DNA of 49,340 bases from Nitrospirota bacterium (GTDB lineage: Bacteria; Nitrospirota; UBA9217): assembly GCA_029858565.1 (NCBI GenBank), contig JAOUEV010000022.1, positions 1 to 49,340 on the forward strand, in the 5' to 3' direction. The notes below the pieces were generated by a model. The model did not search any database. It worked only from the letters and a program-made list of their open reading frames with translations, and was not told the DNA's origin. Positions 1 through 11,787 of the stretch are shown here, in pieces. The stretch's first letter is position 1. Each line of letters starts with the position of its first letter. Both the position numbers and the translations under genes were made by a program.

Positions 1-372
1 CGTCACGAATATGCCGAACACCGAGACGCAGAAGATGCAGAGCCTGCCGATCCAGAAGACCTGGTAACCGGCGAAGAAACCCTCGGCAGCAAGCGCCGCG
101 ATGATCACCAGGCTCACGAACTGGTCACGGAGCTTGTTCTCGGTCCGCAGCCCTCGTGCGGAAAGAACTGTCAGCAGGGCCAGGACCGCTGTCCCGGGCA
201 GGATGATCGCAAGATCGCCGAACCGGCTGTACTGGGCAACGACCTTGCACCCTTCGCCGGAGCAGATGCTGGTCCCGAACAGCTGGAGCACCGCTTCCAG
301 GGCCAGATACAGCGCGCCAAGGCCGCTCACGATGAGAAATGCAAGAGATGATAGATAGCGTCCGTTGATCAT
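1..372 (-). CDS. VKOR-family disulfide-forming membrane protein, partial (runs off left edge)
   Basis: The minus frame is open from an ATG at 372 to the window edge, so only the first 124 residues are visible. They contain hydrophobic segments at about residues 9-28, 48-65 and 80-97, a Cys pair CSGEGC at about 37-42 and a CIFC motif near the visible end. A Cys pair followed by a membrane-embedded CxxC is the signature of bacterial vitamin K epoxide reductase homologues, which reoxidise DsbA-like proteins using quinone. A DsbA-like gene lies 3 kb away, which fits that role. The start at 372 gives a hydrophobic N-terminus directly; I see no strong ribosome site. The C-terminal part, and any fused thioredoxin domain, lies outside the window. 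Confidence 0.75.
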   Translation of the reverse strand, partial: MINGRYLSSLAFLIVSGLGALYLALEAVLQLFGTSICSGEGCKVVAQYSRFGDLAIILPGTAVLALLTVLSARGLRTENKLRDQFVSLVIIAALAAEGFFAGYQVFWIGRLCIFCVSVFGIFVT

Positions 373-3066: not shown

Positions 3067-3334
3067 ATAAGTATGGGAATTGGGGACTGGGGAAGAACAG
3101 CCTCATGCTCTACCCATATATAACGTTGTTACTTACATTGCAAAACGCGTGACGGTGCGCTTAGATGTTGGCAGGTGAAAAGATTGATGGTGGAGCTATA
3201 ACGCAACGTAAGCATCAACTTCCCCAAGGTGCAAAGTGTGTTCGTGCTCCGCATTTCTGCTTGAATTTGCCGCCGGTGTATAGTACAGTTCGGCGTAATG
3301 GATCCGGCACTGCCGGGTCGGAAAAGGAGGCGTC

Positions 3335-4183
3335 ATGTCCATAATCCTGAGACGTTCGTGTATCGCGGTCCTGCTGTTGCTCGCTTTCCTGGCGGGCTCT
3401 CCGGCTGCCGCGGAGATCGAATGGACCGAAAAGCGAAAGCTCACGCTCGATGCGTCGCCCCTCGACATGGTTACTACGCCCAATGGCAGGTGGCTCATCG
3501 TGCTCACCCCCGGCGAAGTCCTGGTCTATTCCGCGCCTGACATGCGGGTCCTTAGCCGCTTCGGCGTGGACCCGTCCTTCGACAAGCTGCTCGTATCGGG
3601 CGACGAGCAGGTCATCCTTGCGAGCACCACGGGCAAGACCCTGAAGTTCCTTCAACTGGACGAGGTCTTTACGTTCACGAACGCGGGTGTGCCGTTCATG
3701 GGTCCGGAGAACGCGCCGGTCACGATCACCGTGTTCAGCGACTACCAATGACCATACTGTGCGCGGCTTGAGCCGCTCCTCCAGCAGTTGCTGGAGAAAT
3801 ACCCCCGGGACGTCAAGATCGTACTGAAGCAGTTCCCCCTCCCGATGCATCAGTTCGCACGAAAAGCCTCGGCCGCGGTACTGGCTGCCGACCGCCAGGG
3901 CAAGTACCGGGAGTTCAGCCATCAGCTCTTCGAGAACTTCTCCCAGCTCTCCGACGGGAAGCTCCAGGAGATCGCGAAGAAGCTCGGCCTGAACCTGGAG
4001 AAGTTCAACAAGGACCTGAACGATCATGCGATCCAGACCAGGATCAACACGGACATCACCGACGGCAACCGGGCGAATGTCCAGGGCACGCCGACGTTGT
4101 TCATCAATGGCAGGCTGGTGCGGGACCGCGGGCCCCAGATGTTCCAGGAGATCGAAGCGGAAGCGAGAAAGAAGAGACAGTAA
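3335..4183 (+). CDS. DsbA-like thiol oxidoreductase, probable selenoprotein (UGA at 3749-3751 read as Sec)
   Basis: Read through one in-frame TGA, this frame encodes 282 residues. A signal peptide (about 1-27) is followed by a short beta-rich segment (about 30-115) reminiscent of one or two propeller blades, then a DsbA-type thioredoxin domain. The domain opens with APVTITVFSDYQ, then TGA, then PYCARLEP; relatives have FSDYQCPYC, so TGA replaces exactly the first, nucleophilic cysteine of CxxC. The domain continues uninterrupted to the cis-proline loop GTPTLFINGR and a normal stop. AAGGAGG lies 5 bases before the ATG. A 7-bp hairpin starts 27 bases after the TGA. Role: periplasmic disulfide chemistry, possibly served by the VKOR-like protein at the left edge. 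The alternative is a nonsense mutation, which I think less likely because codon structure and motifs are intact on both sides. Confidence 0.8.
3779..3796 (+). promoter_or_regulatory. Candidate bacterial SECIS hairpin
   Basis: CTCCAGC (3779-3785) pairs perfectly with GCTGGAG (3790-3796) around the loop AGTT (3786-3789). The loop begins 34 bases after the TGA and has a G in its second position. This fits the published description of bacterial SECIS elements: a short stem, a small apical loop with a G among the first two bases, and about 16-37 bases from UGA to loop. A smaller hairpin at 3763-3776 lies closer to the TGA but its loop has no early G. Confidence 0.6.
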
Positions 4184-4234
4184 CGGACCCTGCGGAATCC
4201 ATGTCACCACCGCAGGCGCAAGGAGCGATCAGGA

Positions 4235-4969
4235 GTGGCCCCATCAATAAAGGAGGAACTGGTTCTGGACGCCTGCCGCACCCTGTTCGGGTCGCGCGTC
4301 CGCATGGGCCGGGACTTCCTGCTCTATCTCCAGCCCGGCGGCGCGAAATCCGCCTTCCGCAGGATCGCGAAAGAGACCCATCCCGACCTCTTCACCGCCG
4401 AGGAGCCCCATGTCCAGAAACAGCAGACCGAGCGTCTTCGCCGGGTCATCGAGGCCTACGAAATGCTGAACGAGTTCTTCCGGCAGCGCGAGGATGGCCG
4501 CTGGATGCCCGCCGCGTCGTATGATGGACCCCCGCTCGACGCAGGCCGCCAGGCCGTGAAGGACCAGGACAAGCTCTATGAGGGTGCTGTTCCCGGACGC
4601 ATGCTCGAGATCGGCGAGTATCTCTACTATCGCCGCATCATTCCCTATCGAGCCCTCCGCGAGGCCCTGGACTGGCAGCGCCGCCAGCGTCCGCTCATCG
4701 GCGATATCGCCCGCCAGTGGAACTGGCTTGATGACGACCAGGTGCGGACGATCCTTCAGCACCGCGGAACGTCGCGCCGCTTCGGCGAGAGCGCGGTGCA
4801 GCTCGGCCTGCTGGAGCCGCGCCACGTGACCGCGATCCTCTGGATGCAGCGCTCGCACCAGGAACGGCTGGGCGAGTTCTTCATCCTGCGGGGGTATCTG
4901 AAGCGGGACGCTCTGGACCGCCTGCTCCAGGAGTTCCACAGCCACAACGCGCGGCACAGCAGGAACTGA
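4235..4969 (+). CDS. J-domain protein with C-terminal MshEN-like repeats (paralogue A)
   Basis: The 244-residue protein begins at a GTG preceded by AAGGAG. Residues about 36-85 form a divergent J-domain: a basic helix AFRRIAKETHPDLF with the intact HPD tripeptide that activates Hsp70, then a helix ending EAYEMLNEFF. The C-terminal half has three repeats of the pattern xxGEx(L/F)xxxGx(I/L)xxxxLxxxLxxQ, at about 128-150, 185-207 and 210-235. This resembles the c-di-GMP-binding MshEN motif, although the arginine and spacing need checking. A close paralogue lies at 42902-43657. It is probably cytoplasmic. The J-domain call is firm; ligand binding by the repeats is inference. Confidence 0.7.
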   Translation: MAPSIKEELVLDACRTLFGSRVRMGRDFLLYLQPGGAKSAFRRIAKETHPDLFTAEEPHVQKQQTERLRRVIEAYEMLNEFFRQREDGRWMPAASYDGPPLDAGRQAVKDQDKLYEGAVPGRMLEIGEYLYYRRIIPYRALREALDWQRRQRPLIGDIARQWNWLDDDQVRTILQHRGTSRRFGESAVQLGLLEPRHVTAILWMQRSHQERLGEFFILRGYLKRDALDRLLQEFHSHNARHSRN

Positions 4970-7152: not shown

Positions 7153-7521
7153 ATGAACAGTACGAACAAGATGCTTTCACTCAAGAAGAAGCTCCTGAAG
7201 CAGCGCGAGGAGCTCCTCTCCGAGGCCGAACATACCATCAACACCAAGCTGGTCACGGAAAAGGAGAGCTTTCCGGACCCCACGGACCAGGCGGCAGCGG
7301 AGCATGACAGCAATTTCCTTCTTCGCCTTCGCGGCAGGGAACAGAAGCTGCTCAAGAAGATCGACGAGGCGATCGCCCGGATCGACGACGGTTCCTACGG
7401 CGTGTGCGAATCCTGCGGCGGCCAGATCGGCATCAAGCGCCTCGAGGCGCGTCCGGTGACAACGCTGTGCATCGAATGCAAGACCCAGCAGGAAGAGGAC
7501 GAGAAACGCCAGGCAGGATAA
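7153..7521 (+). CDS. dksA: DksA/TraR-family transcription factor
   Basis: The 122-residue protein has an N-terminal coiled coil (about 1-80, with DPTDQAAAEHD at its tip) and a C4 zinc finger CESCG-x17-CIECK near residues 91-115. DksA enters the RNA polymerase secondary channel and works with ppGpp to tune rRNA and amino-acid promoters. The coiled-coil tip has the acidic D-x2-D arrangement expected for DksA-like activity. I chose the ATG at 7153 because GAGGT lies 7 bases upstream; the open frame continues 16 codons further without family resemblance. A consensus-like promoter lies upstream, and a strong terminator follows at 7563-7597. Confidence 0.93.
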   Translation: MNSTNKMLSLKKKLLKQREELLSEAEHTINTKLVTEKESFPDPTDQAAAEHDSNFLLRLRGREQKLLKKIDEAIARIDDGSYGVCESCGGQIGIKRLEARPVTTLCIECKTQQEEDEKRQAG

Positions 7522-7562
7522 CTGATCAATCACGCCGGGATGGAGCAAAGCGAAGTAATGGT

Positions 7563-7597
7563 CGGGCTGACGGTAACAGGTCGGCCCGTTTTTTATT
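7563..7597 (+). terminator. Rho-independent terminator after dksA
   Basis: A 9-bp stem (CGGGCTGAC, 7563-7571, with GTCGGCCCG, 7580-7588, one G-U pair) and an 8-base loop are followed by TTTTTT. It lies just before the ribosome site of the next small gene, so that gene depends on read-through or its own promoter. Confidence 0.85.
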
Positions 7598-7609
7598 CGG
7601 AGGATTGCG

Positions 7610-7735
7610 ATGGACCAGGAAAAGGACACGAGCGATGTCCAGGAGATAAAGACGCTTCTTCGGGAGATCCTGCAGATGCAGGAACAGCTGCTCCACCGGA
7701 TCGAGAAACTGGAAGAGTCAGTTCGGAAGAACTAA
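7610..7735 (+). CDS. 41-residue acidic coiled-coil protein
   Basis: A short ORF starts with ATG at 7610, with CGGAGG 7598-7603 six bases upstream, and ends with TAA at 7735. The product begins MDQEKDTSDVQEIK and then has an amphipathic heptad-like helix with leucines and isoleucines (LLREILQMQEQLL, then IEKLEE). There is no signal peptide or cysteine. It sits behind the dksA terminator and ahead of tRNA-Val. Good spacing and clear helix periodicity support translation. Function unknown; it could be a small oligomeric partner. Confidence 0.6.
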   Translation: MDQEKDTSDVQEIKTLLREILQMQEQLLHRIEKLEESVRKN

Positions 7736-7824
7736 GGAAGCAGACGGTCGCTGCCAACGCGGTGCATTCGGTATAATGAAATGGAAATGGGTTGCGGCTA
7801 ATGCCGCAACCCATTTTATTTGCA

Positions 7825-7899
7825 TGGTGGGCGCTACTGGGATTGAACCAGTGGCCCCTGCCGTGTGAAGGCAGTGCTCTCCCGCTGAGCTAAGCGCCC
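7825..7899 (-). tRNA. tRNA-Val (anticodon CAC), CCA encoded
   Basis: On the minus strand a full cloverleaf is visible: 7-bp acceptor GGGCGCT/AGCGCCC, D arm GCTC-loop-GAGC, anticodon arm CTGCC-TTCACAC-GGCAG, and T arm ACTGG-TTCAATC-CCAGT. The loop places CAC at positions 34-36, which reads GUG valine codons. The 3' CCA is genomically encoded at 7825-7827. Confidence 0.95.
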
Positions 7900-8040
7900 G
7901 TGCAGGGTCATATCTTACCTGCCCCTCCCCGCCTGAGTCAAGAAAAATGTTGCCGTTTCTTCCGCGCGACCCGCTGGTTGACAGGACCGCGCCAAAATGC
8001 TTTAATGGAACAAGTTCGCCGCAAGAAAGCAGGGAAGTGC

Positions 8041-8754
8041 ATGTTCGTTAAACCGGAAGTCCTGGTGATCTGTCCCACAGCAGCAGGAAGAATGTATCTC
8101 GGTGTTCTGCTCGGCCGCATCTGGTATCAGCCTCTCCTGGCCCGGACCGTTGACGAGGCCATCCATCATGCCAACCGCTCCCGCTTCGCCGTGCAGATCC
8201 TGGACGGCGACCTTCCCCTGGAGACCTTCAAGAGCGCCATCGCGGTGATCAAAACGCACCCGCTGACAAAGACCATCCCGCTGGTGGTGTTCGCTTCCAC
8301 AACAGCCGCTCCACCCGCTGAAACGCTTCGCGCCCTGGGATGCGAATGCGTTTTACCGAAACCCGTGGACTTCTCCCTGACCTACGCGACCCTGGCCCGG
8401 CTCTCCGGCCAGACGCGGCACCAGGCGCGCGTATCGCTCCATCTGGAGGTCACTTTGGAGGAACAGCTTCCCGAAGCAATGCTGATCTGTACGAACATTT
8501 CCGAAGGCGGCATGTTCCTCCGCACACCGTCACCGCCTGCCGCGGGATCGGTCCTGCGCATCAGATTCACCCTTCCCCAGGACAACCAGCTGATCAAAGC
8601 AGCAGCGACCGTGGTCCACCGCATGCAGCTGGGAACAACGATGGAGAAGGAACCGGGAGTTGGTCTGCGGTTCTCTTCCCTAGCGGAACAGGACCTGGCG
8701 CGCATCAGGCTGTTCGTCCAGCGCCAGATCCTCGGCGATCTTCGGTGGAGCTAG
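8041..8754 (+). CDS. Receiver-like plus PilZ domain protein
   Basis: A 237-residue protein. Residues 1-125 have the order of a response-regulator receiver domain: VLVICP strand, a phosphoacceptor-like VQILDGD, VVFAS, and a conserved lysine in LPKPVDF. The C-terminal half is PilZ-like, with R-residues near QTRHQARVSL and the diagnostic NISEGGMFLRTP, then GVGLRFSSL. PilZ domains bind c-di-GMP. A two-component input joined to c-di-GMP output fits the HD-GYP gene 1 kb upstream. I use the ATG at 8041; the ATG at about 8005 and longer starts add residues that do not fit a receiver domain. No partner histidine kinase is adjacent. Confidence 0.8.
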   Translation: MFVKPEVLVICPTAAGRMYLGVLLGRIWYQPLLARTVDEAIHHANRSRFAVQILDGDLPLETFKSAIAVIKTHPLTKTIPLVVFASTTAAPPAETLRALGCECVLPKPVDFSLTYATLARLSGQTRHQARVSLHLEVTLEEQLPEAMLICTNISEGGMFLRTPSPPAAGSVLRIRFTLPQDNQLIKAAATVVHRMQLGTTMEKEPGVGLRFSSLAEQDLARIRLFVQRQILGDLRWS

Positions 8755-9680: not shown

Positions 9681-10844
9681 TCACTGGGCCTGCAGAACCA
9701 GGCATTTGAGGTACTGCGTTTCCCGGGCAGCGAGCAGCATGGGATGGTCGCGAGCCTGGGATCGCTCTTCCAGGAGCCGCACCGGACGTCCGGCGGACCA
9801 GGATGCGTCGATCAGCATCTCCCGGAACAGGTCGAGATCTATGTGATGGGAACAGGAGCAGGTCACCAGAAAACCGCCGGGCTCCAGCAGCCGCAGGGCC
9901 CGCAGATTGATCTCCTTGTACCCCTTGAGCGCCTCCCGCACCTTTGCCCTGCTCTTCACGAACGCCGGCGGGTCGAGGATGATGCAGCCGAAGCGCTGCC
10001 GGTCTTTTTCCAGGCGCCGCAGTTCATCGAACACATCGGCAACAACGAACTTCGCCGCGAGACCGTTCAGTCCCGCGTTCGCCTGGGCCAGGGAAATGGC
10101 GCGCTCCGACGAATCAATGCCCATGACCTCGGAAGCGCCGAACCTGGCAGCGGACAGGGCCCAGGCGCCGACATAGCAGAAGCAATCGAGCGTGCGAAGG
10201 CCGGGCACCAGCGCGGCCAGGGCCTGACGGTTCTCCCGCTGGTCAAAGAAGAAGCCGGTTTTCTGTCCCTCCAGCAGGTCCGCCCGGTACTTGAGCCCTG
10301 ATTCCTCGAACCGCACCGGACCGGCAACGCTCCCTTTCACGACCGAAACATCGAGCGCAAGTCCTTCAAGTTCGCGGGAACCCGAATCGTTCCTGAGCAC
10401 GATCGCTGAAGGTGCGTAGACCTCGTCCAGCGCTGCTAGGATCGTCTTTGTCAGCCGGTCGATGCCCGCGGTGGAGCATTGCACTGCGAGGACATCTTCG
10501 TACTTGTCCACGATCAAGCCGGGGATGCCGTCGCCTTCGCTGAACACTGCGCGGTAGGACCGGCCGAAACCCAGGCGCTCCCGGAGCTCGCGGGCCCTGC
10601 GGATGCGGCTGACAAAGAACGGAACGTCGGTCTCCTCCTGCTGCCGCGTCAGGATGCGGCAGGCGATCAGCGAGCGGGGATTCAGGTAGCCGCGGCCGAG
10701 GAACTGGCCGCGATTATCCGTCACGTCAACAAGCTCTCCCGGCTGAGCGTCGCGGGGAAGGTCCTCGATCTCGTTGCTGAACACCCAGGGATGTCCCCGC
10801 TGGAGGCGGCGTTCTTCTCTCTTTTTTAGCTTGATGGTTCGCAT
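9681..10844 (-). CDS. rlmI: 23S rRNA (cytosine-C5)-methyltransferase, RlmI family
   Basis: The 387-residue protein begins with a PUA domain (about 1-75; HPWVFSNEIE, GELVDVTDNRGQFLGRGYLNP) and continues with EGDGIPGLIVDKY and a class I methyltransferase. SAM-binding motif I is LDCFCYVGAWALSAA, the catalytic motif IV is LDPPAFVKSR, and motif VI is VTCSCSHHI, whose cysteine is the expected nucleophile. RlmI makes m5C1962 in E. coli 23S rRNA. The ATG at 10844 is the natural PUA start; the 41 extra codons upstream are the reading frame crossing the surA stop region. The gene follows the SurA-like gene by 7 bases and is probably cotranscribed. Confidence 0.88.
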   Translation of the reverse strand: MRTIKLKKREERRLQRGHPWVFSNEIEDLPRDAQPGELVDVTDNRGQFLGRGYLNPRSLIACRILTRQQEETDVPFFVSRIRRARELRERLGFGRSYRAVFSEGDGIPGLIVDKYEDVLAVQCSTAGIDRLTKTILAALDEVYAPSAIVLRNDSGSRELEGLALDVSVVKGSVAGPVRFEESGLKYRADLLEGQKTGFFFDQRENRQALAALVPGLRTLDCFCYVGAWALSAARFGASEVMGIDSSERAISLAQANAGLNGLAAKFVVADVFDELRRLEKDRQRFGCIILDPPAFVKSRAKVREALKGYKEINLRALRLLEPGGFLVTCSCSHHIDLDLFREMLIDASWSAGRPVRLLEERSQARDHPMLLAARETQYLKCLVLQAQ

Positions 10845-10851
10845 CCCGAGT

Positions 10852-11787
10852 CTACAGCCTGTTCTCAATATGCGATTCCGTTCGAAGCGTCTGGAGCCAG
10901 GCTCGGTAGGTGTTCTCGAGCTTCTGCTCGCCCAGCGTTCTGGCGATCTCTTCCCGTACCTTCTCAAAAGGCTGCACCGGCGTCCTGGTCTCCTCGAGCC
11001 TGACCAGGTGGTACCCGTCCGCGGACTTCACCGGACCCGCGTACTCGCCGGGCTTGAGGCCGCGCACAGCGTCCTCGATCTCCGGCAGAAGGTGCTCCCG
11101 TCTCAGAAAGCCCGTGTCGCCGTCAAGGGACGCGGTCGGCCCGCCGGAATGCTGCCGGATGAGCGCGATGAAATCCCCGCCCTTCTTCAGCTGGTCCAGG
11201 AGCTCCGCGGCCCGGTCCCGCGCCGCTGCTGCCTGGGCCGCGGTCGCTTTTGCCGGGACCGTCACCACCAGGTGCCGCACCCGGACCTCCTCGGGCATTG
11301 CGTACAGCTGGAGATTCTTTTCGTAATAGGTCCGCATCTCTTTCTCGTCAAGGGAAAGCCCGGTCCGCACATACTTGTTGATCAACCGGGACATGGTCAT
11401 CTGCTCGCGCAGCTCGCTCCGGTATTGATCGAAGGTCATGCCTTCCTTCTCAACGGCCCGCTCGAACTGCAGCCGGTCCATGCCGTTCCGGCGCATGACG
11501 TCGTTGACCGCCTCGTCCAGTTCCTTGTCCGTCACATCCATGCCGGTCTTCCTTGCCTCGGCCATCTGGAGCTTCCGGTCGATCATGTCCTCGAGCACAA
11601 GCCGCTCGTCCCTGGTTTCGCGCTGCTTTTGGACCTCGCGCTGAAGATCGCTCATGGTGATGATGTCGTCGTTCACCACGGCAACAACGCGGTCAACGAC
11701 AACGGACCCGTTGGCCGCGCTGGAAACGCCGCCCAGCACCAAAAGGGCCAGACCGATACAACAAAAGAAAAGAGAACGCTTATTCAT
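10852..11787 (-). CDS. surA: SurA-like periplasmic peptidyl-prolyl isomerase
   Basis: The 311-residue protein has a signal peptide (about 1-25, ending VSSAANG), a SurA N-terminal chaperone region (VDRVVAVVNDDIITMSDLQREV onward, about 30-165) and one parvulin domain (about 168-265) with VRHLVVTVP, FIALIRQHSGG, DTGFLRREHLLPEIEDAVRGLKPGE and GYHLVRLEE. One parvulin domain rather than the two of E. coli SurA is common outside enterobacteria. It helps outer-membrane proteins cross the periplasm. The start at 11787 gives a clean signal peptide; the frame upstream is not protein-like. It is separated from the two related lipoproteins by the opposite-strand CapA gene. Confidence 0.85.
   Translation of the reverse strand: MNKRSLFFCCIGLALLVLGGVSSAANGSVVVDRVVAVVNDDIITMSDLQREVQKQRETRDERLVLEDMIDRKLQMAEARKTGMDVTDKELDEAVNDVMRRNGMDRLQFERAVEKEGMTFDQYRSELREQMTMSRLINKYVRTGLSLDEKEMRTYYEKNLQLYAMPEEVRVRHLVVTVPAKATAAQAAAARDRAAELLDQLKKGGDFIALIRQHSGGPTASLDGDTGFLRREHLLPEIEDAVRGLKPGEYAGPVKSADGYHLVRLEETRTPVQPFEKVREEIARTLGEQKLENTYRAWLQTLRTESHIENRL

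Follow-up and report, generated by a model that had tools for sequence, protein, structure and literature searches.

A predicted exported DsbA-family selenoprotein with two N-terminal YVTN-type blades and a two-hairpin SECIS element in a Nitrospirota bacterium

The stretch of DNA analysed here (the window; 49,340 nt, positions 1-49,340 of contig JAOUEV010000022.1, assembly GCA_029858565.1) comes from a Nitrospirota bacterium and carries on its forward strand an open reading frame (ORF; positions 3335-4183) that is intact save for a single in-frame TGA at 3749-3751. With this codon translated as selenocysteine (Sec, U), the product comprises 282 residues, and the TGA takes precisely the place of the first Cys in a CxxC motif, which becomes UPYC (U139 in VFSDYQ-U-PYC). 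The codon-position GC content is almost equal on both sides of the TGA (0.59/0.43/0.81 before and 0.61/0.34/0.86 after it), as would be expected if one coding frame spans it. An antisense ORF (3218-4210) was considered and is taken to be a by-product of the high third-position GC content. The evidence presented below leads us to regard this gene, with high confidence, as encoding a selenoprotein of the DsbA family, which is probably exported.

A sequence-only reading of the window had proposed that the TGA occupies the place of the first active-site cysteine (TGA-Pro-Tyr-Cys), that the frame runs on into a complete DsbA domain with a cis-proline loop, and that a beta-rich N-terminal segment unusual for DsbA precedes this domain. 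All three proposals hold. Residues 119-268 match both Pfam families Thioredoxin_4 (PF13462; E 4e-27, 95.7 bits against a cut-off of 23.2) and DSBA (PF01323; E 1e-22, 81.1 bits against a cut-off of 25.6), and the layout typical of the DsbA family is present, including UxxC where the first helix begins, the cis-proline loop (GTPT, with P253 invariant in the homologue alignment) and a helical insertion in the thioredoxin fold. A single-sequence AlphaFold model was poor (predicted local distance difference test, pLDDT, 43), and an alignment-based model was used instead (mean pLDDT 90.5, predicted template modelling score 0.76). It displays seven N-terminal strands followed by the DsbA fold, with the active-site helix at residues 140-155 and the inserted helices at residues 175-246. 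The matches obtained by Foldseek with the whole model are DsbA-type proteins, including 3gyk (E 2e-12), BdbD and ScsC.

A profile of approximately residues 26-126, built from 11 members and compared with the PDB, matched the YVTN surface-layer (S-layer) beta-propeller 1l0q (E 5.2e-25), other propellers being weaker. By this sequence comparison, the N-terminus corresponds to two blades of a YVTN-type beta-propeller. The roughly two repeats within residues 27-118 do not suffice to close a propeller ring in one chain, and an assembly of several chains may therefore reasonably be inferred.

Table 1. Coordinates of the gene, its predicted domains and the RNA elements in the window.
Feature	Position	Strand	Basis
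Shine-Dalgarno-like AAGGAGG upstream of ATG	3324..3330	+	direct reading
Selenoprotein gene, 282 codons including one UGA read as Sec; stop TAA 4181-4183	3335..4183	+	
Predicted signal peptide, residues 1-26, MSIILRRSCIAVLLLLAFLAGSPAAA	3335..3412	+	direct reading; N-terminal helix in model
N-terminal domain, two YVTN-type beta-propeller blades, ~residues 27-118	3413..3688	+	profile against PDB; model strands
DsbA-like thioredoxin-fold domain, residues 119-268	3689..4138	+	Pfam PF13462, PF01323; Foldseek 3gyk, BdbD, ScsC
UGA selenocysteine codon, first position of UPYC	3749..3751	+	aligned with Cys in homologues
TGT codon of resolving Cys C142 in UPYC	3758..3760	+	
SECIS region hairpin 1, 5 bp, loop TTGA	3763..3776	+	89% of cells paired, one compensatory pair, 13 Sec copies
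SECIS hairpin 2, 7 bp, loop AGTT, presumed SelB-binding element	3779..3796	+	97.8% paired, three compensatory pairs
Cis-proline P253 codon in GTPT	4091..4093	+	invariant in alignment

The alignment of homologues at the TGA column, which the earlier reading had suggested as a check, revealed TGA or TGC/TGT at this column and no decay of the frame downstream. Across 99 related genomes, the DsbA homologues fall into those with a single TGA, which in the ones read occupies the first CxxC position, and those with a cysteine at that place. The close family sharing the same N-terminus was enlarged by scanning genome contigs and, within the phylum, 396 genomes, and all of the Nitrospirota members found with this N-terminus have TGA at the same codon (the window, two copies in G007, and G005, G363, G273, G365, G191, G181, G371, which is partial, and G153). 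Outside Nitrospirota, TGA occurs in L071 (labelled Poribacteria) and L075 (Desulfobacterales), and a cysteine codon (TGC/TGT) stands at the same column, with the frame intact, in L072-L074, L076-L079, L083 and L084. Cysteine versions of the same architecture are found in Desulfosarcina, Geobacteraceae and other delta-type genomes, and Sec and Cys copies are intermingled in the tree. The organism itself has a second DsbA-like selenoprotein gene (G000:C24:41822-42310, L055), whose TGA stands first in the active site (UPHC). No relative was found among viral contigs with the query protein, and plasmids yielded only distant DsbA-type matches (<60% identity). Two side observations concern related genes. 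Genome G007 (L053) carries two nearly identical tandem selenoprotein genes (7218-8066 and 10398-11246) about 3 kb apart, and several Myxococcota frames (L120, L123, L138, L139) contain three to five successive DsbA-like domains, all with Cys active sites.

A search of the source genome (3.9 Mb, a draft of 144 contigs rated 100% complete) for selA, selB, selC and selD, likewise suggested at the outset, found all of them, selD twice. The selA (604 bits) and selB (389 bits) genes lie on one contig, and the tRNA-Sec gene was detected at 64 bits and as tRNA-SeC with anticodon tca by ARAGORN. The two selD genes, which score over the cut-off (L010 on contig C3 and L011 on contig C14), each contain one in-frame TGA within the active-site sequence (AGUACK or CGUAAK), at the known Sec/Cys site of this enzyme, and thereby lend independent support to the reading of UGA as selenocysteine in this organism.

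Two hairpins lie just downstream of the TGA, in the place of a bacterial selenocysteine insertion sequence (SECIS). Hairpin 1 (GCGGC-TTGA-GCCGC), with its loop 16 nt after the UGA, had gone unreported in the sequence-only reading, which had pointed to hairpin 2 (CTCCAGC-AGTT-GCTGGAG; -11.3 kcal/mol, with its loop 34 nt past the TGA) as a 7-bp AGTT hairpin at SECIS distance. According to the rules quoted in a 2026 review (PMC13188914), a bacterial SECIS has a loop of 3-9 nt with a G in its first two positions, a stem of 4-16 bp, a loop located 16-37 nt after the UGA and a minimum free energy of at most -7.5; with its 4-nt loop AGUU (G then U), 7-bp stem, distance and energy, hairpin 2 lies within all of these limits. 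In this sequence alone, the total RNA structure is significant (z -2.45, 0.75% of recodings). The strongest evidence is comparative. Thirteen Sec copies, which align without gaps over 57 nt, have both hairpins in common (columns 15-28 and columns 31-48), the latter with loop AG[GT]T in 13 of 13. Over the two hairpins, 94.2% of cells are paired and four pairs show compensatory change, a covariation score that none of 500 shuffles reached, and sliding the partners lowers the pairing to 28-49%. RNAalifold, unaided, returns the same two-hairpin structure for the Sec copies. In contrast, the same columns of 12 Cys homologues are 45% paired, near the slid versions, and RNAalifold finds no structure in them. 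In a wider set compared with synonymous recodings, the mean z is -1.71 for 26 TGA copies vs +0.13 for 16 Cys copies (p 4.5e-5). No RNA family was reported by Rfam at the SECIS over 3700-3860, either at the gathering score or at a relaxed E-value. A search of the organism's own genome with the two-hairpin model gave this gene as the only clear match, the next one (E 0.02) being without a leading TGA.

In the mechanism that we propose, SelB carrying Sec-tRNA-Sec would bind hairpin 2 (loop AGUU) and thus direct the insertion of selenocysteine at UGA 3749. In E. coli fdhF the hairpin bound by SelB begins ~11 nt after the UGA. Such spacing is not seen here, as hairpin 2 starts 27 nt after the UGA; folding out hairpin 1, which lies between the two, may shorten the effective distance to 13 unpaired nt, close to that of fdhF. 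The mature protein would consist of the two YVTN-type blades followed by the DsbA domain with its Sec-Pro-Tyr-Cys site and cis-proline substrate loop. Outside the cytoplasm, Sec139 would attack and Cys142 would resolve, resulting in thiol-disulfide exchange. Most likely, the N-terminus holds several chains together in a small oligomer, a role played by different N-terminal segments in ScsC and DsbC, and such an oligomer would favour a reductase or isomerase role over simple oxidation; we offer the oligomer and these catalytic roles tentatively, at somewhat less than even odds. A particular version, in which e.g. three chains contribute their two-blade segments to a composite closed propeller of six blades, the several Sec-DsbA domains act as an extracytoplasmic isomerase or reductase, and the inserted hairpin brings the distant GU-loop hairpin within reach of SelB, is more speculative still and, taken as a whole, rather unlikely.

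TGC and TGT are one base away from TGA, and the assembly behind the window is a draft of 144 contigs, so one might suspect that the TGA is either a true stop, yielding a truncated product, or a sequencing or assembly error in an ordinary CPYC DsbA gene. We regard this as highly improbable, since the same TGA recurs in homologues from at least 12 genomes of different genera and phyla with the downstream frame conserved, the covarying RNA element just past it is missing from the Cys copies, and the Sec machinery is present. Decoding of the UGA as some other amino acid (e.g. Trp or Cys via a suppressor tRNA) would have parallels in other bacterial UGA reassignments. It is equally hard to credit in a genome with tRNA-Sec (tca), selA, selB and selD, where both SelD proteins have TGA at the known Sec/Cys site, the TGA under study sits at a redox Cys position, and the SECIS-like element follows the TGA copies only. 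With selenocysteine as the preferred reading, the question arises which hairpin SelB recognizes. Hairpin 1 is closer in its distance to the fdhF element and shows the pairing and the compensatory pair listed in Table 1, but it is mismatched in some Sec copies (G365, L075), whereas hairpin 2 with its AG[GT]T loop is kept in all 13; its role as the SelB-binding element is improbable, albeit less so than the two readings above.

A more substantial alternative, to which we give roughly one chance in three, concerns the function of the protein. It could act as a monomer and as an oxidase of the DsbA type, supplied by DsbB or by a VKOR-like protein, the blades serving as an adaptor to the membrane or to substrates. 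The genome does have a DsbB-like gene (C46) and VKOR-like genes (one on C55 and one at window 1-372, minus strand). The DsbB gene, however, adjoins a different Cys paralogue, no VKOR relative was found in the majority of the genomes that have this selenoprotein, and Sec occurs mostly in reductive enzymes and peroxidases. The VKOR-like fragment at 1-372 was itself considered as a partner and rejected because its distribution does not match that of the selenoprotein. It encodes a membrane protein, cut short by the end of the contig, that contains the motifs CSGEGC and CIFC and scores below the Pfam cut-off; its relatives have open frames of ~300 residues. The gene downstream of the selenoprotein gene (4235-4969, plus strand) encodes a weak DnaJ-like region and an MshE-related cyclic di-GMP-binding motif above the NCBIfam cut-off.

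Several points weigh against the mechanism that we propose. Judged on the window sequence alone, a consensus hairpin just as long arises in ~10% of synonymous recodings, so that hairpin 2, as originally singled out, is by itself weak evidence. The sequences compared are related, hence the counts are not independent and the shuffle and rank tests overstate independence. With 34 nt between the UGA and its loop, hairpin 2 approaches the upper limit of the accepted range (16-37 nt). With regard to function, no partner recurs consistently next to the gene across the family, and the genome encodes proteins of the oxidising kind (DsbB, VKOR-like) alongside others of the DsbD/CcdA type, so that the enzyme may reduce, isomerise or oxidise.

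The class to which this protein would belong is a known one: a study of the Sargasso Sea (PMC1088965) described DsbA-like selenoproteins with UxxC in 2005, a study of genomes (PMC1794560) did so in 2006, and the review PMC13188914 lists them. The window protein resembles their form 1 (PF01323) in the DsbA domain, in a UxxC motif that opens with Sec and in the bacterial SECIS downstream; N-terminal YVTN blades are unmentioned in the descriptions of form 1 given in the consulted parts of these three papers. The nearest curated selenoprotein model, NF041057 (Rcas_1661 thioredoxin-like (seleno)lipoprotein, the 'DsbG-like' selenoprotein of PMC13188914), aligns with residues 113-262 at 51.2 bits vs an equivalog cut-off of 190, and, unlike these lipoproteins, the window protein has no visible lipobox. 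ScsC, BdbD and 3gyk share the fold of the C-terminal domain and its active-site layout, but have Cys in place of Sec and a different N-terminal oligomerisation part or none. The surface-layer propeller 1l0q has the same repeat sequence as the N-terminal domain, and matches via six successive overlapping stretches, whereas the window protein has two blades. The short UPHC/UPFC DsbA-like selenoproteins of Nitrospirota (including that at C24:41822) have TGA at the same catalytic codon, but are without the two-blade N-terminus, and their GU-loop hairpin is located ~18-22 nt after the UGA vs 34 nt here. Among the UPFC genes, L025, L034 and L065 have a near-identical hairpin (CCAGC-AGGT-GCTGG) ~22 nt after the UGA, at a codon position different from that of the window. 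No curated NCBIfam model covers the family, and a limited literature search, which is no proof of novelty, found nothing joining 'selenoprotein' with 'YVTN'. It is the subfamily that looks new, in its domain architecture, in the two hairpins of its SECIS and in having no curated NCBIfam model.

Standard annotation would take the TGA as a stop and thus report a fragment of 138 residues plus an orphan where there is one gene. Because the same architecture occurs with Sec in some bacteria and with Cys in others, it permits a direct comparison of what selenium does for a disulfide enzyme outside the cytoplasm, and the two-hairpin SECIS, whose AG[GU]U loop keeps a constant distance of 34 nt, provides a testable case for the reach of SelB. 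If the blades do assemble, they would represent a further route, beside the stalks of ScsC and the dimer domains of DsbC, to multimeric thioredoxin-fold enzymes.
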